From Pseudomonadota bacterium (GTDB taxonomy: Bacteria > Pseudomonadota > Gammaproteobacteria > Burkholderiales > Ferrovaceae): a stretch of 51,062 nt of DNA. A model generated the notes under the pieces. It did no database searches. It saw nothing but the letters and a program-made list of their open reading frames with translations, and was not told where the DNA came from. The DNA lies in assembly GCA_021850135.1 (NCBI GenBank), contig JAJZRV010000006.1, positions 1 to 51,062 of the forward strand, read 5' to 3'. The translations under genes and the position numbers were made by a program. Shown piece after piece: positions 21,982 to 49,981 of this stretch (the first letter of the stretch is position 1; the number at the start of each line of letters is the position of its first letter).

Positions 21982-22602
21982 CTAACGCGACAGGATCGCC
22001 GCAGTATCACGCGCCATCTGTCGGGCTTCCAAGGGCTGCTGAAATACGGCGCGCAGACTGCCGTCGGGAGCAATCAGAAAAATCGAGCTGGTGTGGTCCA
22101 CACTGTAACTGTTGCTGCCTGCCGCTTCACCCGCATTTCGCACGTAATAGACCCCAAGATCCTTCGTCAACGCCTTGAGTGCGGCATCGCTTCCCGTCGC
22201 CCCGATGAAAGCAGGATTGAAGGCGGGAACGTAACGTTGCAGAAGCTCCAGGCTATCGCGCGGGGCATCCACCGAGACGAAGACAACTTGCGGCGGAGTG
22301 GCCCTTTCCCCCAGTTGACGCGTCACGTCCGCAAGCAAAGCAAGGCTGGTGGGGCAGACATCAGGGCAATGCGTATAGCCAAATAACACGAACGTCCAGT
22401 GCCCCTGCAGCGTGGCGTTGGAAAATTCTCCCCGGGTGGCAGGCAGATGAAACTCGGGCAGCGGACGTCCGTCATCCAGCAAATGAACCGTTGGACCGAG
22501 GACCAGGCCTGGCCCCCGTGTTCCGTGAGAAAGCCAGAGCGCTCCCGCCAGCACCAGCAGCACGGCCCCGGCGGTCAACACCAGGAGGGAGCGTCCTTTC
22601 AC
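21982..22602 (-). CDS. SCO1/SenC family copper metallochaperone
   Basis: FVLFGYTHCPDVCPTSLALLADV; FVSVDAPRDS; VDHTSSIFLIAPDG. Confidence 0.92.
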   Translation of the reverse strand: MKGRSLLVLTAGAVLLVLAGALWLSHGTRGPGLVLGPTVHLLDDGRPLPEFHLPATRGEFSNATLQGHWTFVLFGYTHCPDVCPTSLALLADVTRQLGERATPPQVVFVSVDAPRDSLELLQRYVPAFNPAFIGATGSDAALKALTKDLGVYYVRNAGEAAGSNSYSVDHTSSIFLIAPDGSLRAVFQQPLEARQMARDTAAILSR

Positions 22603-23354
22603 AAGCTGCGGGCGAGGCGGAAGCCGATGCTATGGACGCGAACGGAGGGGTCTTCCGCACTGCGGCGAGTCGCCACAAGGTCCTGGGCTGAGTTATGCCA
22701 CGACCCACCCCGCAATACGCGCGAGGGACAGTTTTCGCCAAGCTGCGGGGCGGTATTCTGGCTTCGCGCTCCACCGTTGACGGGGGCGGCATCCTGCAGG
22801 TCGTCGCGATAACAATCTTCCACCCACTCCCACAGATTGCCGCTCATGTCATAGAGACCCCAGGCATTGGGTTTTTTTTCAGCAACCGGGTGCGTGCTGT
22901 TGTCGCTGTTGCCCTCAAACCAAGCTACTTCCTCGAGGGTGTTGCCGCCACAGTAAGTGCTTGCCGTGCCCGCCCTGCAGGCATATTCCCATTCAGCCTC
23001 GGTCGGCAGCCGATAATGCTTGCCCGTCTTGGCATTGAGACGCAGAATGAAAATCTGGATGTCGTCCCAGCTCACGTTTTCCACAGGGCATTTACTGCCA
23101 CAGTTGACGAATTCGCTAGGGTTCTTGCCCATGACGGCCTGCCACTGGGCCTGGGTCACGGGCGTCACGCTCATGGCAAAAGGTTTGGCAAAAGTCACCT
23201 TATGATCGCCCTTGGCCCCCATCATGAAACTTCCTGCAGGCACCGAGACCATTTCAGGACAATCGGGACAATCACGCCCCGGGCCCGCAGCATGTGCCCC
23301 CCCGGAAATCAACCCGACCCCCAACCCCGCCAGCATTGCCAACACTCTTAGCAT
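22599..23354 (-). CDS. Secreted SUMF1/FGE-fold protein lacking FGE catalytic cysteines
   Basis: Signal peptide; VPAGSFMMGAKGDHKVTFAKPFAMSVTPVTQAQWQAVMG; RLPTEAEWEYACRAGT; VLRGGSWHNSAQD. Confidence 0.88.
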   Translation of the reverse strand: MLRVLAMLAGLGVGLISGGAHAAGPGRDCPDCPEMVSVPAGSFMMGAKGDHKVTFAKPFAMSVTPVTQAQWQAVMGKNPSEFVNCGSKCPVENVSWDDIQIFILRLNAKTGKHYRLPTEAEWEYACRAGTASTYCGGNTLEEVAWFEGNSDNSTHPVAEKKPNAWGLYDMSGNLWEWVEDCYRDDLQDAAPVNGGARSQNTAPQLGENCPSRVLRGGSWHNSAQDLVATRRSAEDPSVRVHSIGFRLARSL

Positions 23355-23512
23355 GTTCTCCTCCCCTTTTGTAATGTGATTTTCGTGGGTGGCCCAGTGT
23401 AGCCCAGCGTCGAGGTTTGCTCAATCTCTGTGCTTTTGGTACCATGGCTTGCCCACATACGGGGGGTCGGTGGGCGTGACTTTGAAAAACACTACAAATC
23501 GAGGGGGTTGTA

Positions 23513-23644
23513 ATGGAAATTAAAGACATTATGGATCAGGGCTACATGATCATCCCGATCATCCTGTTCGTGGGCGGCATTCTGGTGTCTTGGAATTTGG
23601 GTAGCCTGGCCATTGGTCTCGTCGAGAAAAACGGCAAGCAGTAA
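23513..23644 (+). CDS. 43-aa single-TM membrane protein (unlisted small ORF)
   Basis: MEIKDIMDQGYMIIPIILFVGGILVSWNLGSLAIGLVEKNGKQ*; upstream GAGGGGG; followed by a perfect hairpin. Confidence 0.7.
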   Translation: MEIKDIMDQGYMIIPIILFVGGILVSWNLGSLAIGLVEKNGKQ

Positions 23645-23652
23645 TCATTCCC

Positions 23653-23691
23653 AAACCCACCAGACCTTCGCACCGATCGTCTGGTGGGTTT
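23653..23691 (+). terminator. Hairpin after the 43-aa ORF (terminator or attenuator)
   Basis: Perfect 13-bp stem aaacccaccagac / gtctggtgggttt, 13-nt loop, no strong T tract. Confidence 0.6.
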
Positions 23692-23791: not shown

Positions 23792-24319
23792 ATGCCCACC
23801 TCCGACAATCGCTCCCTGGTCAAATTCCTGCTGGTCTCTGCGCTTTCCCTGTTCATTGGTGCGATGCACGGCATGTTGCAGGTGTTCCCCCCCATCCGCG
23901 CCTGGCTGGACTCCATCGGCAGCCCCTACGGCGGGCCGGGGCACATGATCGATCCCCTGGCACATGCGCACATGAACCTGGTGGGAGGCGTCGTGATGCT
24001 CGCGATGGGAGTGACTTACTATCTCATGCCCATCCTGAGTGGCAAACCCATCTATTCACAGCGCCTGGTGCAGCACTCTTTCTGGTGGATGGCCATCGGG
24101 GTCTACAGCTTTTATACGACCCAAATGGTATTTGGCTCATGGGAGGGCTATCTGATGCTCCATGACCGGGTGGCGATGACGGCGGCGCACCGCTGGTACG
24201 GTCCGATCGTCGCCATGGCAGGCACCTGCATGGCAGTCGGCTTCATGGTGTATTTTTCGAACGTGGTGCTGACGCTTCTGTCAGCTCTTCCGAAGGATCT
24301 CAACGCCCATCGAGATTGA
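23792..24319 (+). CDS. Short (175 aa) haem-copper oxidase subunit I-like (CcoN/NorB-like) membrane protein
   Basis: DPLAHAHMNLVGGVVMLAMGVTYYLMPILSGKPIYSQRLVQHSFWWM; five or so TM segments; paralogous to 46158..46676. Confidence 0.7.
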   Translation: MPTSDNRSLVKFLLVSALSLFIGAMHGMLQVFPPIRAWLDSIGSPYGGPGHMIDPLAHAHMNLVGGVVMLAMGVTYYLMPILSGKPIYSQRLVQHSFWWMAIGVYSFYTTQMVFGSWEGYLMLHDRVAMTAAHRWYGPIVAMAGTCMAVGFMVYFSNVVLTLLSALPKDLNAHRD

Positions 24320-24707
24320 GTGGAAAACGCAATACCGTTTCCTGGTCGTTGCGCCGAACCTGTACCTGCAGCACGGAACGTTCCCCCGGCCCCACCAGCG
24401 CCGCCCTGCGATAAACACCCACCCTGCCGTCCTGGATCGCCTGCTTCCACGGGTCTGCCCCGGCGGTACGCACGTCCACCAGGCAATCCCATGCGGGCTG
24501 TCCTCGCCCATCGGTCACGATGACCAGAAACTCGTTCATGCCCTTCACAGGCGGACTGGGCCTGCTTTCCACGCGAACATCCAGGCCCTGCCACTGCTGC
24601 GGCACGCTGTCTGCCACGCGATCGCCCCCACTACAGCCAAACAACAGCACTGCCACGCCAATCAGCGTCTGGGCATTCCAGCGGCGCGCACCTCGGGTCT
24701 GCGTCAT
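24300..24707 (-). CDS. Lipoprotein with FixH/YtkA-like domain
   Basis: MTQTRGARRWNAQTLIGVAVLLFGCSGG lipobox; VKGMNEFLVIVTDGRGQPAWDCLVDVRT...; downstream of ccoG. Confidence 0.55.
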   Translation of the reverse strand: MTQTRGARRWNAQTLIGVAVLLFGCSGGDRVADSVPQQWQGLDVRVESRPSPPVKGMNEFLVIVTDGRGQPAWDCLVDVRTAGADPWKQAIQDGRVGVYRRAALVGPGERSVLQVQVRRNDQETVLRFPLNLDGR

Positions 24708-24709
24708 AT

Positions 24710-25138
24710 TTAGCGAGACTCCGGCGGCCGTTCCGACGGGGGAGCGGGCTTGGACTCCGGGTCGGAGTCCAGCCGGCCTGCGGCAGCCGAGCCATACAGG
24801 CGCACCATGAAATAAACGAAGGAGCCCGCCCCCGCAATATAGACCAGTGCCACCGCAAATCCCCAATCCACCCAACTACGCTCCTGGCCTGGACGCGATC
24901 CCCAGAAGGGAAAGGCCAGGCCGATCCCGATCAGCAACACCACCACGACCACTGCAAAAAACCAGTAAGGCACCGGCTTTTGCGACTCCGGAATCTTCTC
25001 CACCAACTCCCAGTCTTCCAGGCCGCGTTTGGCCTTGCGCTCCTCGTCCGAAGCGTAGCCGAAATGGTCTGCCGCCTGCGCACCCCATTCTGAATGAACC
25101 GTGCCCAACGCTTTGGAAGGCTCTTGCTGTTCTGACAT
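24710..25138 (-). CDS. Membrane protein with CcoP N-domain-like segment
   Basis: WELVEKIPESQKPVPYWFFAVVVVVLLIGIGLAFPFWGSRP; no CxxCH. Confidence 0.55.
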   Translation of the reverse strand: MSEQQEPSKALGTVHSEWGAQAADHFGYASDEERKAKRGLEDWELVEKIPESQKPVPYWFFAVVVVVLLIGIGLAFPFWGSRPGQERSWVDWGFAVALVYIAGAGSFVYFMVRLYGSAAAGRLDSDPESKPAPPSERPPESR

Positions 25139-25141: not shown

Positions 25142-26428
25142 CTATCTCTCCTGATGCTGTTCGGAAAAATGCTGGATCGGAAAACGGCTTTGCCAGCCCT
25201 CGGGCGATGTGGCCAACACCGTAAAGGCATGCAGCCCGTGCGGCAACTGGTCTGATAACGACAGGATGGCTGAGGCTCGCCCTGCAGCCGCCAGCGCCAG
25301 CGTGGAGTCCGAAAGATGGTAGTCGCCCGGCGCCAACCCTTCCACCGACAAATGAATCGTTCCAGGTTGATAGCGCTTATTGGTCACGGCGATCCGGTAA
25401 TCCAGGTTGGTATGGGTAGCCTGGACTTCGGCCCGATAAGCCGCCAGATGAAACGGCTCCCAAGTCCACAAGCCCCATAAAAACAGGCTGGCGCCCAGTA
25501 CGCCAATCACCGCCATCCAGCTGCCACGTGAATTCAGCGACACCATGTTATTGCGGAAATGGATGCGGGACTCTTTCTGCTCCCGGCGCTCCCCCACTTC
25601 AAAACGCAGCAGGCCTGGAACCTGCTTCTTGGCGTGCAACCGGTTGCAGGCATCGATGCACTCGCCGCAGTTGATGCAGCTGTCGTAAATCGCCGTTTTG
25701 CGCGGATCAATGTCGATGAAACAGGAAGTGACGCAGTAGTTGCACTTCTCGCATTCGCCCGAGCGACTGGCATCATAGCTGACGTGAAGGGTTTCCCGGG
25801 TCCTGAAACTATGCTGCCAGACCCGATAAACGCAAGCAAAACGGCACCAGAAATGCCGGATCACGGCGACGTCAATAAAAATGATCAGCACGAACACGGC
25901 ATAGATCCAGTGCAGTGAGCCTGCCAGCTTTGGATCGGCGCGCCAGGTCACAAAAGACCAAACCGTTGCCGGAGGATAGAAATAGAAAAGGGGGATCAGT
26001 CCGAACAACAGGGAGGCACCAAGAAACGCAAGGGCCAGCAGGGTCCAGTTCAGTGCCCTGTTTTTGGCTGCCGCCACAATGGGGGCATTCCCTTCCAGGC
26101 TCACTTCGGCGCGTTTCCCCAGCAGTCTGTGCGTCATGTGATTTGCCCATTCCGCCAGGATATTCTGGGGGCAGACCCAGCCGCAGAACACCGTTCCTGC
26201 CGTGGAATAAAGCATGACCAGAGCGCTAAGCAGCATGATCCAGAGCCCGGCGATCAGGAAAAAATCTGCAAACCAGACCTGTCGGTCCAGCACGACCAGG
26301 GCTCCGGCGCTCGGATCAATGCGGAACAGGCCGATCGCCGGCACCAGGACCGCAAGGAGGATCGAGATCGCCTGGGCCAATCGGCGGCGTTGGTGGTAAT
26401 GCGTGGGTGAAACCAGCGTTGAACTCAT
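25142..26428 (-). CDS. ccoG: Cytochrome c oxidase accessory protein CcoG (FixG/RdxA)
   Basis: FCGWVCPQNILAEW; GECEKCNYCVTSCFIDIDPR; DSCINCGECIDACNR; TM helices. Confidence 0.92.
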   Translation of the reverse strand: MSSTLVSPTHYHQRRRLAQAISILLAVLVPAIGLFRIDPSAGALVVLDRQVWFADFFLIAGLWIMLLSALVMLYSTAGTVFCGWVCPQNILAEWANHMTHRLLGKRAEVSLEGNAPIVAAAKNRALNWTLLALAFLGASLLFGLIPLFYFYPPATVWSFVTWRADPKLAGSLHWIYAVFVLIIFIDVAVIRHFWCRFACVYRVWQHSFRTRETLHVSYDASRSGECEKCNYCVTSCFIDIDPRKTAIYDSCINCGECIDACNRLHAKKQVPGLLRFEVGERREQKESRIHFRNNMVSLNSRGSWMAVIGVLGASLFLWGLWTWEPFHLAAYRAEVQATHTNLDYRIAVTNKRYQPGTIHLSVEGLAPGDYHLSDSTLALAAAGRASAILSLSDQLPHGLHAFTVLATSPEGWQSRFPIQHFSEQHQER

Positions 26429-26467: not shown

Positions 26468-29074
26468 TTAATTCTTCGCCGACCGGGCTTCCCGGTCAAG
26501 TGGACTGATCTGCAGCAAGCGCAGCCGTGTGGCTTCAGCCTCGGGGTCCCCCCGACCGACCTGATCATGCCACAATGCCCGCAGCACATCTGTCTGCCAC
26601 GGGTTGATCTGCAACAACCTCAGCAGCGCCTGCCGGCGATCCAGACCACGCGCCACCGCGCCATCCAGCCGGGCCAGCATCAGATCGGACAAGGCGTAGG
26701 CAGTCCACCGATCATGCGGGTTGGCATCAAATGCCATGCCGATCAGGCGGTCTGCCTGGGTGGCCTGACCGCGCATGGATGCGACCCAACTGCGCACCAG
26801 CAGCTCCGTGCCGATGTAGGCGCGTTGAAACTCGGGTTGCGATGTCGGGGGCACCTGCAGCATGCTCTGCGCCTGTTCCACGCGAGGCCGAATTTCCAGC
26901 AGTTGCTCCAAGAGTGTCGCAACGTCCGCGACGGCCCCGTAACGCACTCGCGGCAGACGAAACTCGATCACAGGCGCCCATTCATCCTGCACTGGACCGC
27001 TACCATAGGGAATGGGGCCCCAATAGCGCCCCAGCCATGTCATCGCCCCCTCTCCAGCTGTCACCTCCTGCCGCTGCAGTGAGCTCAACCGCTGCAGGTT
27101 GGCCAGTGCTGCTGGCGCTCCCAACCAGGTCGAGCGCGGCCCCACCAGTGCCAGATGCATCCCGTCCAGGAACATTTGGGCTTGGGGAAATACGGTACGA
27201 AAGCTGTGCAGGACCACCTTCAGGGATTCCGGATCGAACTGGTTGAGTGCAAGCCATTGCACGAACAGCCCTTGTTCCGACAGATGCCCGCGTGCCCGCT
27301 CAAATTGCTGCACCGAAAGCAGGGAACTCACGCCGGCAAGGTCGGGATGGAACAGGTCACCGATAATCACATCGTAGCGCGCCGTGCTGGCACTCAGAAA
27401 ATGGCGCGCATCGTCCTGATGAATCGTGGTTTTTTCCAGTACGTCCTGATTGAGGGGCGCAAACCAGCGCTGTGCCGCCAGGATGGCTCCACGGGACAAC
27501 TCGACTGCACTGCGTTGCAACCCGGGATAGGGGGCAGACCCGGTATCGGATATCCCGGTGCCCAGTCCAAGAAACAATACCGAGTGTGGTGCTGGATGCA
27601 GCAACAGGGGAAGGCGCGCCTGATTGGCCTGCACGAAAACTGCCGTGGGTTCGGTGGAGGCGTCGCGGCGCTGCAGGTCGGTGAGCAGCACACGCTGGCC
27701 GTCCGCCTGTTCCACAACCTGGGTGATGGCAATTGCATCCTCATACCGATACAGGTCATGACTGCCGGAAAATGCCTGTGGCAGCAGTGTACTGACCGGA
27801 GGAAGCGCCACAAGGCCGTAACCCGCGGCGCAGAAAACCAGAAACCCGGGTGCCATCCAGGACTTGAAAGGTCGATGCCACGTCAGTCCCAGCAACAGCA
27901 CGACAAGCGCCGCCATCACCAATGTCGCTGCCGTGCCCATCCAGGGAATCAGCACTGCCCCGGCCAGGATGGCACCCAATGCCGCTCCGAGTGCGTTGGC
28001 GCCGTAGAGTTCCAAACCGCTGCTTTGCGATTGTCGTGCCAGGATGGGCAACCAGGCCCCAAGAACCAGAGTGACTGGAAGTGTGAGCGCCAGCAGCAGC
28101 ATCCCCTCCATGAAAAGCGCCATACCCAGGGAATGCCAGTGCGCCTGTTCCACCCAGGCTGATACCCAGGGCAGCGCCCACAGGCCCAGCAAGGCAAATC
28201 CCGCGCCGCACCAGGGCAACCCTGCCGACCAGCGCAACGAATGTCGGCGGGAAGCCAGCAGGCTTCCCAATCCAATCCCTGCCAGAAATACAGCCAGAAT
28301 CAACGCCAGCACGTATTCGGTACGCAACATGACCAGGCTGAACAGGCGGGTCCAGGCAACCTCCAGCACCAAGCTGGCCGCTCCCAGGGTGCCATAGGCC
28401 AGCAACAGTCCTGTGGCGGGGCGACGCGGGGCATCATGTTCAGCCGGGGCAAGGCTCCCGGCCTGTGACAGAAGTCCGAATCCAAGGGCGACAGCCAAAC
28501 CGAGCAATGCCACACCGCGCAAAGCCGGTCCCCAACCCAACCAGGGCAGCAGGACCAGCGGCAACAGGGCGCCCAACACTGCGCCCAGTGTGTTGATGCC
28601 GTACAGGCGCCCCAGCATCTGCCGGGTTTGCGCAAATGATTGCAGCAGTAAGGTAAAGCCAGCACCCATGGCGCAGGCAGGCAGGGTCAACAACAAAAAG
28701 CTCGCCCCAGCCATCAGTGCGTGCCAGGCTGCGGGGGTGAGCCGGGCTGCTGCCGCATCGATGCCCTGGCCCGCCCATTGGACAGCCCAAGGCAGGAGCA
28801 GGGCAAATACTGCAACCCCACCTTCCAGAAACGCCAGGAGACGCAGCGGATGTTTCGCGCGTGCCGCGCGCGAGGCCAGTGCGAGGCTTCCCAAGCCCAA
28901 ACCGGTCATGAATGCCGCCACGGTGACCACCACCCCGAATACGCTGACGCCAAACTGGAGCGAGAGCATGCGTGCCCACAAAACCTCGTAGGCTACGCTG
29001 ACGAGGCCGGAGCCTCCATAGAGCAGGGTGATCCAGCCCACCCGTTTATCCGAGAGGGCGTGCGTCATCTTCAC
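26468..29074 (-). CDS. Polytopic membrane protein fused to spermidine synthase-like domain
   Basis: Long N-terminal TM region GGSGLVSVAYEVLWARMLSLQFG; C-terminal SVLFLGLGTGISDTG...VELSRG...YDVIIGDLFHPDLAGVSSLLSVQQFERARGHLSEQGLFVQWL. Confidence 0.82.
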   Translation of the reverse strand: MKMTHALSDKRVGWITLLYGGSGLVSVAYEVLWARMLSLQFGVSVFGVVVTVAAFMTGLGLGSLALASRAARAKHPLRLLAFLEGGVAVFALLLPWAVQWAGQGIDAAAARLTPAAWHALMAGASFLLLTLPACAMGAGFTLLLQSFAQTRQMLGRLYGINTLGAVLGALLPLVLLPWLGWGPALRGVALLGLAVALGFGLLSQAGSLAPAEHDAPRRPATGLLLAYGTLGAASLVLEVAWTRLFSLVMLRTEYVLALILAVFLAGIGLGSLLASRRHSLRWSAGLPWCGAGFALLGLWALPWVSAWVEQAHWHSLGMALFMEGMLLLALTLPVTLVLGAWLPILARQSQSSGLELYGANALGAALGAILAGAVLIPWMGTAATLVMAALVVLLLGLTWHRPFKSWMAPGFLVFCAAGYGLVALPPVSTLLPQAFSGSHDLYRYEDAIAITQVVEQADGQRVLLTDLQRRDASTEPTAVFVQANQARLPLLLHPAPHSVLFLGLGTGISDTGSAPYPGLQRSAVELSRGAILAAQRWFAPLNQDVLEKTTIHQDDARHFLSASTARYDVIIGDLFHPDLAGVSSLLSVQQFERARGHLSEQGLFVQWLALNQFDPESLKVVLHSFRTVFPQAQMFLDGMHLALVGPRSTWLGAPAALANLQRLSSLQRQEVTAGEGAMTWLGRYWGPIPYGSGPVQDEWAPVIEFRLPRVRYGAVADVATLLEQLLEIRPRVEQAQSMLQVPPTSQPEFQRAYIGTELLVRSWVASMRGQATQADRLIGMAFDANPHDRWTAYALSDLMLARLDGAVARGLDRRQALLRLLQINPWQTDVLRALWHDQVGRGDPEAEATRLRLLQISPLDREARSAKN

Positions 29075-29075: not shown

Positions 29076-29450
29076 TCAGAAGGGGTAGAACCAGACGAGC
29101 CCCACGATCACGTGCACCAGGGCAAGCGTCATGGTCAGCCCTGCCAGAATCATATGGAGCAGGAACAGCGGCTTACCGAAGATCCCCATGGCAATACCCA
29201 CGGCGCCGGTGGTCAGCAGCAATATCAGCAGGGGGATGCCCAGAAGAAACATGATGAGGTGTTTTTTCCGGTCACCGATGGCTGCAGCCGAGTCCACACG
29301 CTGCGCCTGTTGGCGATCAAAAGCCTCGAGAACCTGCACCCCGTTCACGTCGTGCGGTGCTTCGGCTGCCGCCGCCAACGGCGCCAGATTAAACGACAAC
29401 AACAGCAGAAATACGATGTTCTGCAACCAGCGACGGAAATGGAGGTTCAT
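29076..29450 (-). CDS. Small membrane protein, unknown
   Basis: Signal peptide plus 2-3 TM helices; in tight operon. Confidence 0.65.
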   Translation of the reverse strand: MNLHFRRWLQNIVFLLLLSFNLAPLAAAAEAPHDVNGVQVLEAFDRQQAQRVDSAAAIGDRKKHLIMFLLGIPLLILLLTTGAVGIAMGIFGKPLFLLHMILAGLTMTLALVHVIVGLVWFYPF

Positions 29451-29695
29451 GGTTCGGGCTGCTCGGGAGGTTTGGCTTCAGAGGATTCAGGCGTTTTGCG
29501 TCCGGAATACCGCCAAACCAAAACGGCCATCAGGATAAAAGGCGCGAAGATACCCACCAACAGGAACAGAAAAATGCTCCACGGCGTGTCAATGGTGACG
29601 TGCAGGTAGCGGTAGCTGTCAAGCGCCTCGCTGCTGTCGGACAGCAGCAACAACACGGGCAGGACTGCCAGCGGCAATGCGGTTGGTTTCATCAT
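29447..29695 (-). CDS. Small single-TM secreted/membrane protein, unknown
   Basis: MMKPTALPLAVLPVLLLLSDSSEALDSYRYLHVTIDTPWSIFLFLLVGIFAPFILMAVLVWRYSG. Confidence 0.6.
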   Translation of the reverse strand: MMKPTALPLAVLPVLLLLSDSSEALDSYRYLHVTIDTPWSIFLFLLVGIFAPFILMAVLVWRYSGRKTPESSEAKPPEQPEP

Positions 29696-30766: not shown

Positions 30767-31243
30767 TCAGGCCCCTGGTTGCTGCCGGTCTGGAGGAGAA
30801 CGGTCCTTGTAAACGAGGTGCCTGGCCCGGCGTCCGTAGGTTCGTTTCATGATGACTTCACCCAACACACCACCAATGACCGCCGCTTCCACCACCAGAA
30901 TCACGAAAAAGCCCCACCACCCAAGCGGCATCAAGGCGGCGCCCTGGGGGACGCCGGTAATGTTGGCCACTTCGTAGTAGCTGATGGCACGCACGATCAT
31001 GGGCGGAAAGTAGCACAGCCATTTACCACCCATCCCGTAGATGGCAGAGACCAGCACCCCGCAAATCAGGGGTACCAGAAAAACATCTACGATCCAGAGC
31101 GGGCTGAAATACTCTATTCCGGTAAAGATTTCGATTTTGACGCCAAGCAGGCGGTCACCCAGATGGTTGAGCGCCATCGCCATGAGCACGGCGGCTGCAC
31201 CACGCGTGATGCGGCTGTTGTCACGTGTGGATGCAGCCTTCAT
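30767..31243 (-). CDS. Polytopic membrane protein, unknown
   Basis: MKAASTRDNSRITRGAAAVLMAMALNHLGDRLLGVKIEIFTGIEYFSPLWIVDVFLVPLICGVLVSAIYGMGGKW...; 4-nt overlap with upstream gene. Confidence 0.65.
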   Translation of the reverse strand: MKAASTRDNSRITRGAAAVLMAMALNHLGDRLLGVKIEIFTGIEYFSPLWIVDVFLVPLICGVLVSAIYGMGGKWLCYFPPMIVRAISYYEVANITGVPQGAALMPLGWWGFFVILVVEAAVIGGVLGEVIMKRTYGRRARHLVYKDRSPPDRQQPGA

Positions 31244-31728: not shown

Positions 31729-32000
31729 GCTGCCCGATTGCGCTCCTCGTTCTGCTGCTTCAGCATGCGTTCGCGACTTGCTTCCTGTTCTGACAGCACC
31801 TGACGGCTTTTGGCGTACTCTTCTGGTGACATTTTGTCCTTATCAGTCTCGGTGAAAACCAGGTACTTGATGTCTTCATCGAACTGTTCGTTGCGAGAAG
31901 CCCAACGAATGCCGTAAATGCTGGCCGCAATGATCAGCGCACCCACGACCAACCAGAGATAGATTGTCCACCCATCCCCCAGCGAATCCAGATAATTCAT
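31725..32000 (-). CDS. CcoS-like oxidase assembly protein with C-terminal extension
   Basis: TM followed by WASRNEQFDEDIKYLVFTETDKD, resembling the CcoS GQFDD motif. Confidence 0.5.
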   Translation of the reverse strand: MNYLDSLGDGWTIYLWLVVGALIIAASIYGIRWASRNEQFDEDIKYLVFTETDKDKMSPEEYAKSRQVLSEQEASRERMLKQQNEERNRAA

Positions 32001-40810: not shown

Positions 40811-43007
40811 GTTCAGCTTGATCGGCGGCCATGGTTGCTACCAGCTTGCGCCCCTGCTGCAGATTGGTGGCTCCCTCATCCTTGACGACCCTGGCATGCT
40901 CACCGGTCTTCTTGATGATGACGCGCGTTGCGTACAAGGCCAGCTCTCCGGTACGTTCGTCGTACATGGGGTCGAAAATCTTGAAGGGATTGACCCCCAT
41001 GCCGTCAGCGTAGCGGCCATAACCCGTGTGCCCCTGCCCCAACGGCATGGACACCGTGTCGGGTTGAATCCCCGGGAAGAGGTAGGCTTTGGCTCGTACC
41101 GACCCGGTGGCAGACTGCACCTCAAGAATGTCGCCTTCACGAATCTGCATCTGCGCCGCCGTGGTGGGGTGAATCTCCACCCAGGAGTCCCACACGACAG
41201 TGGTCAGCGGATCGGGGGATTCCTGCAGCCAGGGCAGGTTGGCGTGGCGGCCATCGCGCAGATCGGCGCGCACCGACGGAACAAAAAAGAACGGGAAATT
41301 GACGTCCGTTTCCAATGCCTGGGGTTTGCCCACCTTGACCGTCGCCGCATGGGCTTCAAGCGCAGCAGGTGGCGCCTCGAGGCGCAATACGCCATTTCGA
41401 AGCGCGTCTTCCCAGAAATCGTCGTCGCTGGACTTCGACTTGAAGACGGGTTTTGCCTTGGTGACCGCGGTCTTGATATACGCGTAGTAATCCGGAAAAG
41501 CCTTATAGGCCTCCGGCTGACGTTGCTTGAGCAGATCCAGCAGGATATCGCCCAGGCCGCGCGTCTCGGGATACAGTCGCTCCATGAGCGGCTGCTGAAT
41601 TGCGAGCTCAACACCCGAAGGCTGGTATCCGGCCACATGGGTTCCAAAATCTTCCATGGGAGACAGGAGCGGCAAAACAAGATCGCACTGATGCGCCGTC
41701 TCGTCCAGTTGCGTCGCAAATGCCACCTTGAACGGCACCTTGGCAAGATTGCTGGCAAAGGGCACGAAGGTAGGTGCAGTGAACACTGGATTGGCCCCCA
41801 TCACCAGCAAGGCTTGGCATTGCCCGGCCGACATCGCCTGGTTGAGCTTCGCCAGCGCGGTTGTGCTGCCGCTGGCAGGCGTCAGTTGGGGAAACGGATG
41901 GCTGGCCTGGCCTTGCAGGGTTTTGCCACGATTCTCAAGGACCAGATTGAGCAGCAAAATGGCCGCAGCATTGTTGAAGCCGTGCACATGCCCCTCTGCC
42001 GAAGGGCCGGAGAGCACCAAGCTGGGGGATTTTTCCCACAGCATGCCAGCGATATGGGAAATGGCGTCTGCATGGATCCCGGTTACTTCGCTGACCGTAT
42101 CCTTGTCGTATTGTTTTAGCGCTTCGGCGATCTCGGCGGGTACGGCATGGGCATATTCCTGATGCTGCAACAGGCTATGTGCGATCCCCAATGCAAAGAC
42201 CCCCTCGGTCCCAGGTTTGATGGCATACCAGCGGTCCGCATTAGCGCCCGTCAGGGTCATGCGCGGTTCGATCTGGATCAGCGTGCCTCTCGGCGCCTTT
42301 CTGAAACGCGCATACTGCGCCGCCATATGCACCGGAGAAGGACCCGTTCCCAGAAAATCGTTGCCAAAGGAAAGGATCAGGCGTGCCTTGTCGATTTGCA
42401 AGACGGGCTGTTCCACGCCCAGCACAGCTTTATTGGCAGCCTGACCGATGGCCGGTGAGAGCGCGTCGTACACGATGTGGTTAGCGGACTTGAAACTCTC
42501 CAGGAAATGGCCCAGCAATACCTTCTGGTGCCCACTGATTTCCCCTGTCAGGACGGCAATTTGGTCCCCGCTGAGCGTGCTGGAAGAACCCAGCCTCGCC
42601 GTCAGCGTGGCCATGGCCTTGTCCCAGGAGACGGGTTTGAAAGCCCCGGCTTCGCGAATCATGGGCGTTGTCAATCGATCGGGGTTGTAATGCACTTGAA
42701 CCCCAGCCTGACCCAATCCGCATATTTTTCCGCCGCTGATGAGCGATTGCGGATTGCCTTCCAGCTTGAGGATTCGCCCTTCGCGAACCCGCCCCATGAT
42801 GCCGCAGCCCGAGCCGCATTGCGTACAGGTGGAGGCGTAATAGACCCCCACACCAGGAACCACGAAATCCTCGGGCTGGACATAGGACTCCACCAGTTCA
42901 GCACCCGACTCGATAGAGGTATTTCCACATCCCGCCAGAGTTGCCGCTGCACCGCTGATGCCCAGCACGCGCAGGAAGTCCCGACGATCGATATTGCTAC
43001 TGCTCAT
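40779..43007 (-). CDS. actB1: Alternative Complex III molybdopterin oxidoreductase-like subunit ActB1, Tat-type lipoprotein signal
   Basis: RRDFLRVLGISGAAATLAGC; YYASTCTQCGSGCGIMGRVREGRILKLEGNPQS...GGKICGLGQA. Confidence 0.9.
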   Translation of the reverse strand: MSSSNIDRRDFLRVLGISGAAATLAGCGNTSIESGAELVESYVQPEDFVVPGVGVYYASTCTQCGSGCGIMGRVREGRILKLEGNPQSLISGGKICGLGQAGVQVHYNPDRLTTPMIREAGAFKPVSWDKAMATLTARLGSSSTLSGDQIAVLTGEISGHQKVLLGHFLESFKSANHIVYDALSPAIGQAANKAVLGVEQPVLQIDKARLILSFGNDFLGTGPSPVHMAAQYARFRKAPRGTLIQIEPRMTLTGANADRWYAIKPGTEGVFALGIAHSLLQHQEYAHAVPAEIAEALKQYDKDTVSEVTGIHADAISHIAGMLWEKSPSLVLSGPSAEGHVHGFNNAAAILLLNLVLENRGKTLQGQASHPFPQLTPASGSTTALAKLNQAMSAGQCQALLVMGANPVFTAPTFVPFASNLAKVPFKVAFATQLDETAHQCDLVLPLLSPMEDFGTHVAGYQPSGVELAIQQPLMERLYPETRGLGDILLDLLKQRQPEAYKAFPDYYAYIKTAVTKAKPVFKSKSSDDDFWEDALRNGVLRLEAPPAALEAHAATVKVGKPQALETDVNFPFFFVPSVRADLRDGRHANLPWLQESPDPLTTVVWDSWVEIHPTTAAQMQIREGDILEVQSATGSVRAKAYLFPGIQPDTVSMPLGQGHTGYGRYADGMGVNPFKIFDPMYDERTGELALYATRVIIKKTGEHARVVKDEGATNLQQGRKLVATMAADQAELAKEISRVTQ

Positions 43008-43034: not shown

Positions 43035-43649
43035 TTACTTGTGGCATTGCCAGCAATCATTCGGCCCGTTGCTCGTTTTGGTGGTGGCGGCATTTTCCAG
43101 ATGGTCTTTCTGGTGACAACTGACGCACCACCCCATAGAGAGCGCCTTGACCCTGCGAGCAGTCGTCATGGACGCAACATCGCCATGGCAGTAACCACAA
43201 ACCTCACGCACCGGACGGTCTTCCCTGAAATAAAAACGCTGAATGTGGCGCTCATGATTGAAACGGACAAAGTCCGGCAGATCATGCACCTTCTTCCAGG
43301 GAATCGGTTCCTTCTTTTCCCAGTATTCAAACAGCTTCTTGATCCTGGGCTTGTCCTTGACCGACTCGATCAGCTTGTGACACCCCATACACTTGTCCAG
43401 CCTCGGAATGCCGGAAACTGCGCTACGTCGTGCGTAGGTATGACAGTACATACAGTTGATGCCCATCTGCCCCGCATGCGTGTTATGCGGAAACTCGATC
43501 GGCTGCTCGACGACCGGGCCCAACGCGTTGTAGCCATCGTCAGTCTGGGAACCAATGGCCCCCCCCTGAACAAACGGCTCGCCAGTTGCCGTACCACAAA
43601 GCACGAGCAGCGACAGCCAAACTAAAATGTTTTTCATGCGAACTTTCAT
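43035..43649 (-). CDS. actA: Alternative Complex III pentahaem cytochrome ActA
   Basis: Five CxxCH sites: CMYCH, CMGCH, CGYCH, CVSCH, CWQCH; signal peptide. Confidence 0.92.
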   Translation of the reverse strand: MKVRMKNILVWLSLLVLCGTATGEPFVQGGAIGSQTDDGYNALGPVVEQPIEFPHNTHAGQMGINCMYCHTYARRSAVSGIPRLDKCMGCHKLIESVKDKPRIKKLFEYWEKKEPIPWKKVHDLPDFVRFNHERHIQRFYFREDRPVREVCGYCHGDVASMTTARRVKALSMGWCVSCHQKDHLENAATTKTSNGPNDCWQCHK

Positions 43650-43993: not shown

Positions 43994-44299
43994 TTACGCA
44001 GGTTTGGCAACAAAGCCCATGCAGTAGCCGTTCGGGACGATTTCATCGTCTCCGGGGTACAGCTTGCAGCCGTGAATTGCGGCTGTAGACGTGGGCTTGT
44101 CTTTATTGGGGAGAAAGTTCATGCATTTGCTGCACTGCTTGTCCCCATTGGGGTGATTTTGGAACTTCAGTGCGGTGCGCACGGAAGTGTTTTGCTTTGC
44201 AAATGCAGTGGTGTTGAATCCGACCATCGGTGCTGCAACCAGAGCGATGCTGCCCATCTTCAGCAATTGACGGCGCGATTTTTTGACGTTGTCTTCCAT
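43994..44299 (-). CDS. High-potential iron-sulfur protein (HiPIP)
   Basis: Tat-like SRRQLLKMGSIALVAAPMVG; four Cys in CSKCMNFLP...GCKLYPGDDEIVPNGYCMGF. Confidence 0.9.
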   Translation of the reverse strand: MEDNVKKSRRQLLKMGSIALVAAPMVGFNTTAFAKQNTSVRTALKFQNHPNGDKQCSKCMNFLPNKDKPTSTAAIHGCKLYPGDDEIVPNGYCMGFVAKPA

Positions 44300-44708: not shown

Positions 44709-45455
44709 ATGCGTAAGTCAATGATCAAGTTTTCATCGGGGTTGGCACTGGCTGCCGCTCTGGTCAGCGTTTCCGCGCTGGCCAGTGAAGAAGGTGCCAT
44801 GAATGGCGACATTGCCAATGGCAAAAAAATCTTCACCGAAGGCAAGGGCGCCGCTGTAGCCTGCATGACCTGCCATGGTCCGACCGGCTGGGGTACTGAA
44901 GCCATGGGTGCGCCGCGCCTGGCCAATCTGGGCTACCCCTACATCGTCAAGCAGCTCACCGATCTCGCCGAAGGTCGCCGTACTCCGGCAGGTGCTGGTG
45001 CCGTGATGCCGCTTTTTGCGCAGCAGCTCTCTGAACAGGACCGTCGTGACGTTGCAGCTTACGTCAATTCTCTCGATGGCCCTGCCGAGCTGTCGGATCT
45101 CAAGGCGCTGAAAGAAAGCGGCCAGCCCGTCGGTGAAAAGTACCTCGGACAGGTCATCGTCAAATACGGCGTGTTGGGTAAGGTTTCTGCCTGCCAATCC
45201 TGCCATGGCTATAACGGCCGCGGGGCTGCGCCCATTTTCCCGGTCATCGGACAGCAGAAGTACACCTATCTCGTCAATCAGCTTCACAACTGGCGCGACG
45301 CCAGCCGTGCCAACGACCCCTATGGCATGATGCGCGCAATCGCCAAGAACCTGACCGACGACGACATCAACAATGTTGCTGCTTACCTGGCTACGGCGCC
45401 TCGTACCACTGGTGCCACGTTTGACAACACCAGCAAGACCAGCAAGGCCCAGTGA
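44709..45455 (+). CDS. Dihaem cytochrome c (c4-like)
   Basis: Signal peptide; CMTCH and CQSCH; duplicated domains. Confidence 0.92.
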   Translation: MRKSMIKFSSGLALAAALVSVSALASEEGAMNGDIANGKKIFTEGKGAAVACMTCHGPTGWGTEAMGAPRLANLGYPYIVKQLTDLAEGRRTPAGAGAVMPLFAQQLSEQDRRDVAAYVNSLDGPAELSDLKALKESGQPVGEKYLGQVIVKYGVLGKVSACQSCHGYNGRGAAPIFPVIGQQKYTYLVNQLHNWRDASRANDPYGMMRAIAKNLTDDDINNVAAYLATAPRTTGATFDNTSKTSKAQ

Positions 45456-45508: not shown

Positions 45509-45546
45509 AACCCGCGCGCAGACCAGCGCGCGGGTTTTGTTTTTTT
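45509..45546 (+). terminator. Rho-independent terminator
   Basis: aacccgcgcgc / gcgcgcgggtt stem followed by TTGTTTTTTT. Confidence 0.88.
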
Positions 45547-45577
45547 GGATGACAGGCACTGCAGGAGGCCCTACCTC

Positions 45578-46156
45578 ATGAAACTCAGCCAGTTAAAACT
45601 GGGCGAAAAAATCCTGTTTGGCATCGTAGGCCTGATTTTTGTATTCGCCGTACTCAGCTTCATCATGCTGGAAATTTACCGATCACGTCTTGATCACCCC
45701 ATGTACCCCTCCACGACCAGTTTCGATTTCACGCAGGAAGGCCAGAAGGGCTCCGTCCTGTTTCGGGAACGTGGCTGTCCCGATTGCCATCGCGCCCTTC
45801 GTAATGGGACCAACCAGGGGGTCAGCCTTGACGGGATCGGCTCCAAGCGCAGCCTGGACTATCTCTTGCGCTTTCTCAAGAAGCCCGAGGCGACTTACGA
45901 AACCAAAACCATGGACCACGGTCTGACCAAGGGCGCTGCCTATGTAGCAGGGTTGCCCGACGCCGAGCAACACGCCATTGCCGTATTTCTGTCAGAATTG
46001 AAAGCGACGCAAGGTTCGGCTGATGCGCGCCTACCCATGCCAGAACGTTCCGGATTCGTGGACGAGATGGTCAAGATCTGGGCCCCAGACACCTGGAAGA
46101 GCGAACGGCGCGATTTGCGTGAAGAAGCCGCTTCGCCCAATAACGAGAGGCATTAG
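45578..46156 (+). CDS. Membrane-anchored monohaem cytochrome c, related to 31240..31728
   Basis: LGEKILFGIVGLIFVFAV; RGCPDCH; LDGIGSKRSLDYLLRFLKKPEA. Confidence 0.85.
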   Translation: MKLSQLKLGEKILFGIVGLIFVFAVLSFIMLEIYRSRLDHPMYPSTTSFDFTQEGQKGSVLFRERGCPDCHRALRNGTNQGVSLDGIGSKRSLDYLLRFLKKPEATYETKTMDHGLTKGAAYVAGLPDAEQHAIAVFLSELKATQGSADARLPMPERSGFVDEMVKIWAPDTWKSERRDLREEAASPNNERH

Positions 46157-46157: not shown

Positions 46158-46676
46158 ATGACTCCACAGCACTCACTTCACCCGGCCATCAACGACCGCG
46201 AGTACACCACCTTTACGCTGCTGTTCGTATACGCGTGCATCACCTATGCCATCATCGGCTTTTCCTGGGGCGCCCTGATGGGAGGCATCCCCGCCTTTCG
46301 TATGTTCGTCGACACCGCACCCCATGGACGGCTGATCCTGCTGGCCCACGGACACATCAATCTGCTGGGATGGGTCGAAATGGCCATTTTCGGATCCATC
46401 TACTATTTCATTCCGCGCCTCGTCAATCGTCCCATCTACAGCATGTCTCTTGTCAAAGTGCATTTCTGGATGCACAACGTCGGCCTGATGGGCATGGTCG
46501 TCCTCTTCACCACTGCTGGCTTCATCGGCGGATATGACCCGGGCCCCGAGGTGGAAGCTACCGTCACGCATCTGATGGCGGGTGTGGGCTTGTTTGGCAC
46601 GCTGGTGTTGCTGGCCAACATCATCTGGGGCTATAACATTTTCAAAACCGGCAAGCGCGGGGCGGATATGTCATGA
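46158..46676 (+). CDS. Short (172 aa) haem-copper oxidase subunit I-like (CcoN/NorB-like) membrane protein
   Basis: LILLAHGHINLLGWVEMAIFGSIYYFIPRLVNRPIYSMSLVKVHFWMHNVGLMGM...VTHLMAGVGLFG. Confidence 0.78.
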   Translation: MTPQHSLHPAINDREYTTFTLLFVYACITYAIIGFSWGALMGGIPAFRMFVDTAPHGRLILLAHGHINLLGWVEMAIFGSIYYFIPRLVNRPIYSMSLVKVHFWMHNVGLMGMVVLFTTAGFIGGYDPGPEVEATVTHLMAGVGLFGTLVLLANIIWGYNIFKTGKRGADMS

Positions 46677-47191
46677 CGCACCTCGTTCGCACCCTCCTCC
46701 TCGCCAGCCTTGTCCTGGGCCTGTTGGCAGGATGCCATCGCCAGGGCAACTCCGGTTTGGAGCGCGGCGAGGCGGCCCCTCGGCTGACCACCAAAACGCT
46801 GGCCGATGTGGGCGGCGACCTCAGTCGGATCACTACGTACCGCCAGCCGGATGAGCGCATGTACCAGTACTCCCTGGACCAGGCGCTCAGCATGGGCAAG
46901 CCGATCCTGCTTGAGTTCGCCACACCTGGTCACTGCTCTGTTTGCGACCGCCAGTTGCAGATCACCAAGGCCATGCTGGACAAGTATCAGACGCAGGTCC
47001 TGTTTCTGCACATGGATCAGTACGAAAACCCGGAAGCCTTCAAGGCATACCGCGTATTCGGTGACCCCTGGACCTTTGTCATCGACAGCAGGGGTATCGT
47101 GCGCTTCCAGCAACCGGGATCCATGCTTTACGGTGAAATGGATGCGGCCATCCAAAGCGTCCTCCCCCGCACCGCCCAAGCTACAAACTGA
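46673..47191 (+). CDS. Thioredoxin-fold lipoprotein
   Basis: Lipobox LLAGC; KPILLEFATPGHCSVCDRQLQITKAML; DPWTFVIDSRGIVRFQQPG. Confidence 0.75.
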   Translation: MTHLVRTLLLASLVLGLLAGCHRQGNSGLERGEAAPRLTTKTLADVGGDLSRITTYRQPDERMYQYSLDQALSMGKPILLEFATPGHCSVCDRQLQITKAMLDKYQTQVLFLHMDQYENPEAFKAYRVFGDPWTFVIDSRGIVRFQQPGSMLYGEMDAAIQSVLPRTAQATN

Positions 47192-47209: not shown

Positions 47210-47662
47210 ATGGCCCAAGGCAACCGCTATACGCTCAGACAGGATCGCAACGGCATGGTCTGGGACTTGTTGTTGTACGTCCCCACGGTGACCGCCCTCG
47301 TTGCCATCGCCGCAAACGCCTGGTTTCAGGAAAACCAGTACCTGGCCTACCTGCTGGTTTTTTTGGCCAGTTTCTTCCTGATTGCCGGGGCCAACCGGAT
47401 ACTCAAGACGCGCCTGATGCTGTTACCCACATCGCCGGTGACCATCGAAGTCGACCGTCAACATGTCACGCTGCTCCTTCGCAACGGCCAACGCCTGGAG
47501 CTTTTGAAAGACGTCAAACTGTATAGGGATTTTTCAGGACGTTCTTTTGGACTGACGGGGCTTGACCCACAGGGACGGCGTTTGCAATTCGTTTTTCACA
47601 AGGGTCAATTCGCGCTCGAACGCGATTACCAGGCGTTGCAGAACACCCTCAAGCCATCGTAA
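47210..47662 (+). CDS. Two-TM membrane protein, unknown
   Basis: VPTVTALVAIAANAWFQENQYLAYLLVFLASFFLIAG then soluble C-terminus. Confidence 0.65.
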   Translation: MAQGNRYTLRQDRNGMVWDLLLYVPTVTALVAIAANAWFQENQYLAYLLVFLASFFLIAGANRILKTRLMLLPTSPVTIEVDRQHVTLLLRNGQRLELLKDVKLYRDFSGRSFGLTGLDPQGRRLQFVFHKGQFALERDYQALQNTLKPS

Positions 47663-47664
47663 GT

Positions 47665-47871
47665 TCAGCGCCCGCGGCGGTGGCGGACCACATCCCAGGC
47701 CATGAAAGCAATGGCCGCTGCGACCACCAGGCACGCCATACCCATGAGTGCGTATTCGGTTTCCGGATTGACGAGTCCGCCTACCAGCATGTGGACAGCG
47801 TATGCCGTCAAAAACAGGGAGCTGAGGGCTACCACGAAATAGACGAGAATTTCCCGGATCGGGGCATTCAT
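47665..47871 (-). CDS. Small two-TM membrane protein, unknown
   Basis: MNAPIREILVYFVVALSSLFLTAYAVHMLVGGLVNPETEYALMGMACLVVAAAIAFMAWDVVRHRRGR. Confidence 0.6.
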   Translation of the reverse strand: MNAPIREILVYFVVALSSLFLTAYAVHMLVGGLVNPETEYALMGMACLVVAAAIAFMAWDVVRHRRGR

Positions 47872-47884
47872 GACGTGATCCGCT

Positions 47885-49357
47885 TCAGGGAGCGCTGCCA
47901 GGGGTGGGCGCACCGGATGCCGGGGCCATGGCCGGGACCTTGACTTTCAAGATCACGCCGCCGGGCTGAAGCGACACCGTCTCCACCTCCGTTCCGAGCA
48001 GCGCCAGGTTTTCGGAAAGTCCCAGGTTTTTGCTGGCACTGGGTGCCAGCATCAAATGTGACAGGCCGCGCAACATCGCCAGCTGGGTTTGGGGATCCTT
48101 GGCCGCAGGCGGCAGAGGGAGCGCATCGCACCGGCAGGCGATCATGGTCCGGGCAGGCCACTGGCTCGCAACCCTGATGCGCGGCAGCGGTTGATTTTTT
48201 TCCTCCATGAGCTTGCGCCCCTGCTCCACATCGTCTGCAAAGGTTCTAATCAGTTGATCCTGATCAGAGAGCATCTCGTTGCGGGCCTCCTGATACCAAG
48301 TGCGATCAGCGCGCATGGCTATCGTGGAAAAAACCAGCAATAGCACCCACACCCACCCTCGCTGAACCAGAAAACCTTGCCGCATCAATAGGGCGCGCGG
48401 TTTGAGCAGCCAGGGAAGTCCTCCGTAGAGCAGCAAGGCCAAGCCGAGAAAACCCCAAGTGGCGTCACAAAGCCCTCCACCGAAAATGACGCCCAACAGC
48501 AGGTTGCGCCCCATGAGATCGCCCCAGAGCGCTCGTCGTTCGTGTGCAATGACCGCAAGCAGGAGTCCCAGAAGCAGCAGTCCGCTGACCCACTCGTAAA
48601 GCGCAGGGTCTCCGCCCTGCAGGTTTGGGCCCCACAGCATGGCGGCAGCGGAGGCGACCGGATTTTGCCAAGTGCCAAGATCATGCCAACCCATGCGCAA
48701 CAGCAGGGTCAGCAGTGTGACGAAGGCGACGCCGATGTAAAAGGCGCGTTGCTGATGGCGATCCAACGGCTGCGTTCGCCAGGTCCACACCAGAGCGAGA
48801 GGATAGGCCAAACCCGCAGGATGTACGCTGACACTGAAGGCGCAAACGGCCAATTGTGCAAAAAACAAGCCCCCATATGTGCGCGGTGTCTGCCGATAGG
48901 CACGATCCAGCCATGCCCCGGCCACGAACGATGCGAGCAACACAACTCCCGGCGAAAGCATATCCACCTGCTGCAACGTGAGGGGCGCAACCAGCAACAG
49001 CCCCGTCGCCAAGAGCGCCTCTTCTTCCGTACCCTGGCTCCGACGCCAAAGAAACAGGCCGGCAGCAGTCGCCACCAGGATAAGCACCGTCACCACCTTG
49101 GCTGCAAAAACCTGACCCGGCCATAAAAAACCGAGCGGCAGCCACAACAGGGCGCGCATGTCCGGCGTCCCCAGTGTTACGGCCGAGTTGGCAACCTGAT
49201 CGCCTATGGACCAGTCCAGGAGTAACGCCTTGGCAGCGCCTTCGTCGAGTGCATAAGGTCCCTGCCGCAGCAAAAACAATGCGATGGCGCCCCAGAGCAG
49301 GAGCGCCAGATAGCCCCAATAACGCTTGGGGATGAATTCGGGTTTTGGATCAGTCAA
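47885..49357 (-). CDS. Polytopic membrane protein, GT-C glycosyltransferase-like topology, function unknown
   Basis: Many TM helices, short luminal motif LRQGPYALDEGAAKALLLDW, soluble C-terminal domain. Confidence 0.6.
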   Translation of the reverse strand: MTDPKPEFIPKRYWGYLALLLWGAIALFLLRQGPYALDEGAAKALLLDWSIGDQVANSAVTLGTPDMRALLWLPLGFLWPGQVFAAKVVTVLILVATAAGLFLWRRSQGTEEEALLATGLLLVAPLTLQQVDMLSPGVVLLASFVAGAWLDRAYRQTPRTYGGLFFAQLAVCAFSVSVHPAGLAYPLALVWTWRTQPLDRHQQRAFYIGVAFVTLLTLLLRMGWHDLGTWQNPVASAAAMLWGPNLQGGDPALYEWVSGLLLLGLLLAVIAHERRALWGDLMGRNLLLGVIFGGGLCDATWGFLGLALLLYGGLPWLLKPRALLMRQGFLVQRGWVWVLLLVFSTIAMRADRTWYQEARNEMLSDQDQLIRTFADDVEQGRKLMEEKNQPLPRIRVASQWPARTMIACRCDALPLPPAAKDPQTQLAMLRGLSHLMLAPSASKNLGLSENLALLGTEVETVSLQPGGVILKVKVPAMAPASGAPTPGSAP

Positions 49358-49360
49358 GGC

Positions 49361-49981
49361 TCAGTGCAGCCCTGCGGTGAAATCCGCCAGCGCCTTGATT
49401 TCCTCGTTGCTCAGGCGATGCGCAATACTGCGCATGATGGCTGATGGGTCGTTGCTGCGGGTGCCGTTCTTGAAATGCTGCAGCTGGATTTCGGTGTATT
49501 CCTGGTACTGCCCCGACAGACGCGGGTACAACGCCGGAATGCCGCTGCCAGTGGGTCCGTGGCAGGCGGCACAGGCTGGAACGCCCCGGTCGATGTCGCC
49601 GGCGCGCCAGAGTTTTTCTCCCATGGCAACCAGTTTGCTGTGCGTGGCCTGGGAACGTTTTGGGGGCTGCGCTGCGTACCAGGCGGCCACATTGCGAATG
49701 TCATCGTCGGACAGCATGCCCACCACCCCGGACATGATCGGGTTATCGCGCAGCGGCGGGGCGCCATTGACGGACTTCATGTTGTTGAGCTGCTTGACGA
49801 TATAGTCCGGCTGCTGGGCCGCCAGATGCGGCTGCGTGGGAATGGGGCTGACGCCATCGGCGCCATGGCAGGCAAAACATACTGAAGTTGCAATGACCTT
49901 ACCCTTCTGGGGATCCCCCTGCACGGCCCAAGTCGCGGGAGACAGTGCCACCAACAGCACCAGAATCATCGTTCTATTCAT
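49361..49981 (-). CDS. Dihaem cytochrome c (c4/c553-like)
   Basis: Signal peptide; CFACH and CAACH. Confidence 0.92.
   Translation of the reverse strand: MNRTMILVLLVALSPATWAVQGDPQKGKVIATSVCFACHGADGVSPIPTQPHLAAQQPDYIVKQLNNMKSVNGAPPLRDNPIMSGVVGMLSDDDIRNVAAWYAAQPPKRSQATHSKLVAMGEKLWRAGDIDRGVPACAACHGPTGSGIPALYPRLSGQYQEYTEIQLQHFKNGTRSNDPSAIMRSIAHRLSNEEIKALADFTAGLH

Follow-up and report, generated by a model that had tools for sequence, protein, structure and literature searches.

A divergent cbb3-like oxidase with a conserved set of partner genes, and its pairing with alternative complex III, in Ferrovaceae and other bacteria

We analysed a 51,062-nucleotide stretch of DNA (the window), which is contig C113 (JAJZRV010000006.1) of a 1.78-Mb, 118-contig metagenome-assembled genome (MAG) of the family Ferrovaceae (GCA_021850135.1). 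Here we focus on positions 21982-49981, where genes for alternative complex III (ACIII), a high-potential iron-sulfur protein (HiPIP) and a divergent cbb3-like oxidase with many accessory proteins lie together (Table 1). A preliminary description of this segment had listed these components, and all of those it named were found. The oxidase genes form a 14-gene unit whose collinearity across loci is far beyond chance, and ACIII and the divergent oxidase go together even where their genes lie apart. On balance, we favour the explanation that the oxidase represents a discrete clade of the C-family (cbb3-like) oxidases and that the block probably encodes two inner-membrane branches of one lithotrophic chain, most likely for Fe(II), that share periplasmic carriers.

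A conserved unit of fourteen genes

We scanned 84,980 species genomes with P208, a 208-aa putative oxidase subunit of the window; 83 stretches encoded a relative, and 80 loci were kept. Conservation across these loci was assessed by tblastn with every window protein followed by gene-adjacency counts, collinearity being counted on the 43 loci of at least 19 kb and upstream neighbours on the 51 loci with enough upstream sequence. The unit runs in the order 32-aa peptide, CcoN, CcoO, P208, mem87, FixS-like protein, cytc162, mem150, SUMF_b, mem82, mem124, MFS/SpeE protein, CcoG and mem142. All 14 genes were collinear in 38 of the 43 long loci, the remaining five being without one or two of them, and most neighbouring gene pairs of the unit showed near-complete pairwise adjacency. 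In 66 of 67 loci the peptide gene immediately precedes ccoN, and halfN_a, which encodes a half-CcoN, follows the unit on the opposite strand in most loci. The observed gene order thus bears out the earlier suggestion that the accessory genes belong with the oxidase.

The upstream neighbour in 30 of the 51 loci is cytc203, usually together with genes for a Cyc1-like dihaem cytochrome and a thioredoxin-fold protein; in the window, these genes sit beyond that of HiPIP. Beyond the components listed in the preliminary description, the block comprises SCO1 and CcoG genes, genes for a FixS-like protein and a FixH-like lipoprotein, and one for a dihaem cytochrome of the Cyc1/c4 type. It is also found in Ferrovum myxofaciens P3G (locus L036), and the nearest named relative at the locus is a Ferrovaceae MAG, the P208 of which is 90% identical. 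Besides Ferrovaceae, the unit is carried by Gallionella (Gallionellaceae), Ca. Nitrotoga and gammaproteobacteria labelled Chromatiaceae or unclassified. Further, we note that the readable part of the Mariprofundaceae loci (L101 and L103), from cytc203 to P208, keeps the layout. That some ten uncharacterised partner proteins retain their order in bacteria living on iron, nitrite or electrodes suggests a poorly described variant of a known enzyme.

Subunits of the divergent oxidase

The window CcoN scored 211 bits, below the ccoN family cut-off of 583. Within Ferrovaceae its identity is 89% or higher; in the other genomes sampled no value lies between this and 32%, and the canonical CcoN proteins of the same and related genomes share ~30% identity with it. 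Alignment to Pseudomonas stutzeri CcoN (3mk7) revealed that the haem, CuB and tyrosine residues are retained: the six histidine ligands (haem b, haem b3 and CuB) and the helix-VII tyrosine are invariant in 74 CcoN sequences, the only deviations being two gaps and one residue left unresolved at the H60 position. At the position that aligns with E323 of P. stutzeri cbb3, a glutamate that we take, from the 3mk7 structure, to be a hallmark of canonical cbb3, 74/74 sequences have glutamine. CcoO has the FixO domain of a C-family monohaem CcoO and conserved CWWCH and IMPR motifs, and a long insertion precedes its cytochrome domain. The divergence of CcoN and the uniform glutamine would suit an enzyme that mainly reduces NO or another small molecule, as some member of the haem-copper family other than an O2-reducing proton pump. 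We consider this very improbable, because the CuB histidines and the helix-VII tyrosine, the mark of an oxygen reductase, are invariant and the PDB relatives found were all cbb3 CcoN-type oxidases. A complete canonical operon lies on another contig of the MAG (ccoN-O-Q-P, then CcoG and CcoH genes and a CcoS-like frame; C85, L116, 1737-6814), and the window oxidase is therefore a second, different C-family oxidase. At C68:2907-4253, the MAG encodes subunit I of a third haem-copper oxidase, for which the COX1 score is stronger (505 bits).

No dihaem CcoP of the canonical kind is encoded in the operon: P208 is without CxxCH, and cytc162 is monohaem. P208 has two transmembrane (TM) segments, laid out as a FixP_N-like entry with the first TM, a periplasmic part and the C-terminal TM. 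Its only Pfam hit was FixP_N, at a sub-threshold E of 0.1, and a 31-residue match obtained with hhalign pairs LTEDNNPIP of P208 with LEEYNNPLP of CcoP, the motif glutamate being invariant in 27 P208 sequences. We infer from these features that P208 may be what is left of a CcoP, or an analogue of it, in which the anchor is retained, and that the haem would be brought by cytc162, a candidate third haem-c subunit. Sequence searches of the PDB with P208 and mem150 returned nothing relevant. As a separate observation, mem142 resembles a distant P208 paralogue, and in a few genomes besides this one the P208 profile picks up another, weak match.

The AlphaFold2 model of halfN_a (pLDDT 84) has four TM helices, and its six best PDB matches were all CcoN chains of cbb3 oxidases (8smr and 3mk7), with TM-scores of 0.72-0.75, a probability of 1.00 and E of ~1e-3. 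The protein aligns with the C-terminal CcoN helices that carry the HxH motif, and H58 and H60 are invariant. Because it is without the CuB half, halfN_a cannot reduce O2 alone; it could be either a chaperone for haem b or an additional haem-b subunit. A contig of 3002 bases in the same MAG (C83, L118) holds a 70-78% identical syntenic copy of mem258-SCO1-SUMF_a-halfN_a (window positions 21192-24204). The start of halfN_a there resembles that of genus g8. We rejected its half-CcoN as a third, true paralogue, as the contig is probably a contaminant from a related species.

In formylglycine-generating enzyme (FGE), a catalytic cysteine pair follows the GGS motif. The corresponding sequence of SUMF_b, RGGSWK.DPFS, is conserved in 69 sequences and holds no cysteine; we thus rejected the SUMF1-fold proteins as active FGEs, and the combination of an FGE-type domain and a TM anchor without the cysteine pair points to a structural role. 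Close orthologues of SUMF_a (at least 50% identity) were seen in six loci besides the window, i.e. in few Ferrovaceae loci only. The MFS/SpeE protein has ~12 hydrophobic segments. Further, mem124 contains a conserved HM...H...WF.PF pattern, and the two histidines in its last helix region are possibly haem-b ligands.

It is possible, if doubtful, that the accessory proteins are mainly biogenesis factors for haem and copper insertion and not stable subunits, the half-CcoN proteins acting as haem-b chaperones. The presence of the SCO1, CcoG and FixS/FixH-like genes in the same block would agree with this, as would the fact that half-CcoN keeps only the haem-side HxH motif. However, in nearly all loci the genes of P208 and the 32-aa peptide are interspersed with the structural genes or immediately adjacent to them, as expected for subunits. 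In the explanation that we favour, CcoN and CcoO would carry out the oxidase chemistry, P208 would stand in, without haem, for the anchor and proton-entry segment of CcoP, and cytc162 would probably provide the haem-c entry that is missing; SUMF_b and the small TM proteins would serve either as structural subunits or in assembly, and maturation of the oxidase would fall to SCO1, CcoG and the FixS/FixH-like proteins.

Pairing with alternative complex III and the proposed chain

The ACIII genes encode a pentahaem ActA, a molybdopterin-fold ActB with an iron-sulfur part, an NrfD-type ActC and a monohaem ActE, as expected for this complex, with ActD and ActF assigned by order and topology only. 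ActB is split into actB1 and actB2, and the best PDB relatives of the actB1 product include ACIII subunit B (6lod, 8k9e, 6f0k and 6btm). HiPIP was recognized by its similarity to 1isu and its exported form, Pfam HIPIP itself giving only E=0.03.

We determined co-occurrence in 18 Ferrovaceae genomes at least 90% complete, in 369 class-wide genomes (ActB1 threshold, E<=1e-60) and in 24 genomes chosen for the oxidase cluster. P208, this CcoN, the MFS/SpeE protein and a full-length or near-full-length ActB1 were observed together in 12 of the 18 Ferrovaceae genomes; five genomes of genus g7 were without all four, and one had ActB1 and halfN_a fragments at contig ends. Class-wide, P208 was present in 33 genomes and ActB1 in 36, both in 30, P208 only in three and ActB1 only in six (Fisher p ~9e-35, a value inflated by shared ancestry). 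Counted by family, 14 had P208, 16 had ActB1 and 12 had both. ActB1 was also found in 23 of the 24 genomes chosen for the oxidase cluster, mostly at another locus. The coupling of ACIII and oxidase put forward in the preliminary description hence holds genome-wide.

The same cannot be said of its further claim that ACIII, HiPIP and the oxidase form a unit. ACIII lies directly upstream of the peptide gene and ccoN in only 13 of the 51 loci, all apparently of Ferrovaceae except L040 (family not stated). HiPIP stands immediately before actA, with the full window layout, in 8/8 readable Ferrovaceae loci; it is found beside ACIII only in that family, and relatives of it occur in only 6 of the 24 cluster-bearing genomes. 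We therefore rejected the trio as a conserved unit. On the same grounds, it is unlikely that ACIII, HiPIP and the oxidase form a dedicated physical supercomplex in which the accessory proteins are the subunits that bridge it: the whole block, with HiPIP next to actA, is kept in Ferrovaceae and the genome-level co-occurrence of ACIII and oxidase is strong, but such co-occurrence is equally expected for two branches that share soluble carriers. Moreover, because the accessory proteins are conserved without ACIII adjacency or HiPIP, they can be dependent on neither HiPIP nor joint expression. The preliminary description had itself held that its proposal would fall if the accessory genes occurred independently of the ACIII/oxidase pair in most genomes; in the complete genomes sampled, the most distinctive of them were not found apart from the oxidase, which upholds that half of the pair, and they were usually away from ACIII, which does not uphold the other.

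In the two-branch chain that we favour, an outer-membrane oxidase (Cyc2-like) would pass electrons to the periplasmic dihaem cytochromes and, in Ferrovaceae, to HiPIP. From these carriers, electrons would flow downhill to the divergent oxidase and O2 and uphill through ACIII, possibly or even probably reversed, to quinone for NADH; both the path and the direction of ACIII are what we infer from gene content. Both branches and their shared carriers would be encoded together in Ferrovaceae, with ACIII at another locus elsewhere. A 494-aa frame of the MAG encodes a Cyc2-like cytochrome-porin fusion, which has a single CxxCH and carries the published AXPXFARQT-CXXCH signature (C14:3901-3939, L133). 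According to the respective papers, Fe(II) oxidation is a known trait of Ferrovum (PMC4725956), ACIII transcripts of Sideroxydans ES-1 are up on Fe(II), which was read as reverse transport (PMC8788666), and the expression of a non-canonical complex IV in Ca. Tenderia clusters with that of ACIII and of complex I (PMC5371394), a shared pattern that fits a two-branch chain.

Several points weigh against our explanation. The match between P208 and CcoP covers few residues and stays below threshold; a search of the PDB with the AlphaFold2 model of P208 (pLDDT 74) gave no match; and it is only by its position that cytc162 would qualify as the replacement of CcoP. Further, a few genomes have ActB1 without P208 or the reverse, and the common ancestry of related lineages means that the Fisher value overstates their independence.

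Table 1. Features encoded at positions 21982-49981 of the window.
Feature	Position	Strand	Evidence
SCO1/SenC copper chaperone, oxidase assembly	21982..22602	-	Pfam SCO1-SenC E=4.5e-36
SUMF_a, secreted FGE/SUMF1-fold protein	22599..23354	-	Pfam FGE-sulfatase E=1.5e-45
halfN_a, four-TM protein equivalent to CcoN helices IX-XII with HxH haem-ligand motif	23792..24319	+	COX1 E=1.7e-10
FixH/CcoH-like lipoprotein, weak assignment	24300..24707	-	position and size; no Pfam hit
mem142, two-TM protein, possible distant P208 paralogue	24710..25138	-	conserved in 55 loci
CcoG/RdxA-like membrane ferredoxin, divergent	25142..26428	-	127 bits vs cut-off 317
MFS-like membrane domain fused to spermidine-synthase-like domain	26468..29074	-	Spermine_synth E=6e-5, residues 487-635
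mem124, small membrane protein	29076..29450	-	conserved in 66 loci
mem82, small membrane protein	29447..29695	-	conserved in 66 loci
SUMF_b, TM anchor and FGE/SUMF1-fold domain without FGE cysteine pair	29692..30762	-	Pfam E=2e-51
mem150, membrane protein, no known family	30767..31243	-	
cytc162, membrane-anchored monohaem cytochrome c	31240..31728	-	Cytochrom_C E=2.5e-6; one CxxCH, one TM
FixS91, FixS/CcoS-like small membrane protein	31725..32000	-	FixS E=0.0036, below cut-off
mem87, two-TM protein	32064..32327	-	conserved in 75 loci
P208, haem-less CcoP-like putative subunit	32615..33241	-	sub-threshold FixP_N; hhalign to CcoP
CcoO, monohaem	33324..34265	-	FixO E=1.5e-15
CcoN, catalytic subunit, divergent clade	34291..35697	-	COX1 E=5e-74
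32-aa single-TM peptide, possible tiny subunit	35793..35891	-	directly upstream of ccoN
actF	36430..37434	-	position and size; 8 hydrophobic segments; no Pfam hit
actE, monohaem cytochrome c	37448..37975	-	Cytochrome_CBB3 E=6.8e-11
actD	37972..38502	-	position; two to three TM
actC (NrfD)	38499..39923	-	NrfD E=3e-28
actB2, iron-sulfur	39950..40810	-	Fer4 domains
actB1, molybdopterin-fold	40779..43007	-	PDB relatives including ACIII subunit B
actA, pentahaem cytochrome	43035..43649	-	five CxxCH; class III cytochrome domains
HiPIP with Tat-type signal	43994..44299	-	PDB 1isu E=1.9e-11; HiPIP 3h31 3e-5
Dihaem cytochrome c, Cyc1/c4-like	44709..45455	+	upstream of oxidase in 29/51 loci
cytc203, membrane-anchored monohaem cytochrome c	45545..46156	+	upstream of oxidase in 30/51 loci
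halfN_b, second half-CcoN	46158..46676	+	COX1 E=9.9e-13
Thioredoxin-fold lipoprotein	46673..47191	+	AhpC-TSA E=3e-5; conserved in 36 loci
Two-TM protein, function not assigned	47210..47662	+	present in 38/80 loci
Polytopic membrane protein, 490 aa	47885..49357	-	no Pfam hit; recurs near oxidase cluster in 36/80 loci
Dihaem cytochrome, c4-type	49361..49981	-	

Relation to known systems

Tentatively, and with less confidence than in the two-branch chain, we propose that the oxidase may constitute a distinct C-family subtype, with a haem-less CcoP substitute, Gln for the proximal Glu, a non-catalytic SUMF1-fold subunit and several new small subunits, tuned to take electrons from high-potential donors and nearly always accompanied by a reversed ACIII, and that it may be a marker, in Proteobacteria, of chains for iron, nitrite and cathode oxidation. 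Passages of the literature on Fe(II) and nitrite oxidisers label the enzyme simply 'cbb3'; if it is true that the subunits differ, the oxygen affinity and proton-pumping values of canonical cbb3 may not apply. Further, the ACIII pairing offers a testable explanation for the split of electrons between O2 and NADH, and the operon is a candidate genomic marker for lithotrophs that use high-potential donors.

The novelty of the neighbourhood has to be narrowed, as parts of it are already in the literature (PMC4643136, PMC3770913 and PMC5371394). The split-actB ACIII of iron-oxidising bacteria (FeOB; PMC4643136), two cbb3 forms (PMC8788666, PMC7029218 and PMC10734462), a gene set common to Sideroxydans ES-1 and Mariprofundus PV-1 (PMC3770913), and a Ferrovum oxidase without subunit III (PMC4725956) are published. 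None of the literature passages treats the block as a single oxidase with these subunits, mentions a change from Glu to Gln, or reports that ACIII pairing extends across the class, and an earlier description is possible; no literature on cbb3 together with formylglycine was found.

With canonical cbb3 (CcoNOQP; 3mk7), the window oxidase shares the CcoN fold, all metal ligands, the cross-link tyrosine, a monohaem CcoO and CcoG/CcoS-type assembly genes, but it differs in its ~30% CcoN identity, the Gln at E323, the lack of a dihaem CcoP and the ~ten extra conserved genes. Proximal and distal cbb3 forms that differ in subunits have been described in FeOB and relatives (Ducluzeau 2008, as cited in passages of PMC8788666, PMC7029218 and PMC10734462), and one of these forms is probably the present clade. 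Two published gene arrangements, the 20-gene conserved set of the Fe oxidisers ES-1 and PV-1 (PMC3770913, which also suggests Leptospirillum homologues) and the synteny around cyc1 in the cathode oxidiser Ca. Tenderia electrophaga (PMC5371394), are, by their description, similar to the block in having a long collinear set of mostly hypothetical and haem proteins, including Cyc1 and a polyferredoxin; the published passages do not present one oxidase with these subunits. The window ACIII has the actA-B1-B2-C-D-E-F order and split ActB of FeOB ACIII, as given in parts of PMC4643136, and differs in being joined to HiPIP and the oxidase cluster, in Ferrovaceae. Finally, the cbb3 of Ferrovum JA12 belongs, by its description in passages of PMC4725956, to the same family: it has subunits I and II only, subunit III is missing, and co-localised c-type cytochromes were proposed as its substitutes.

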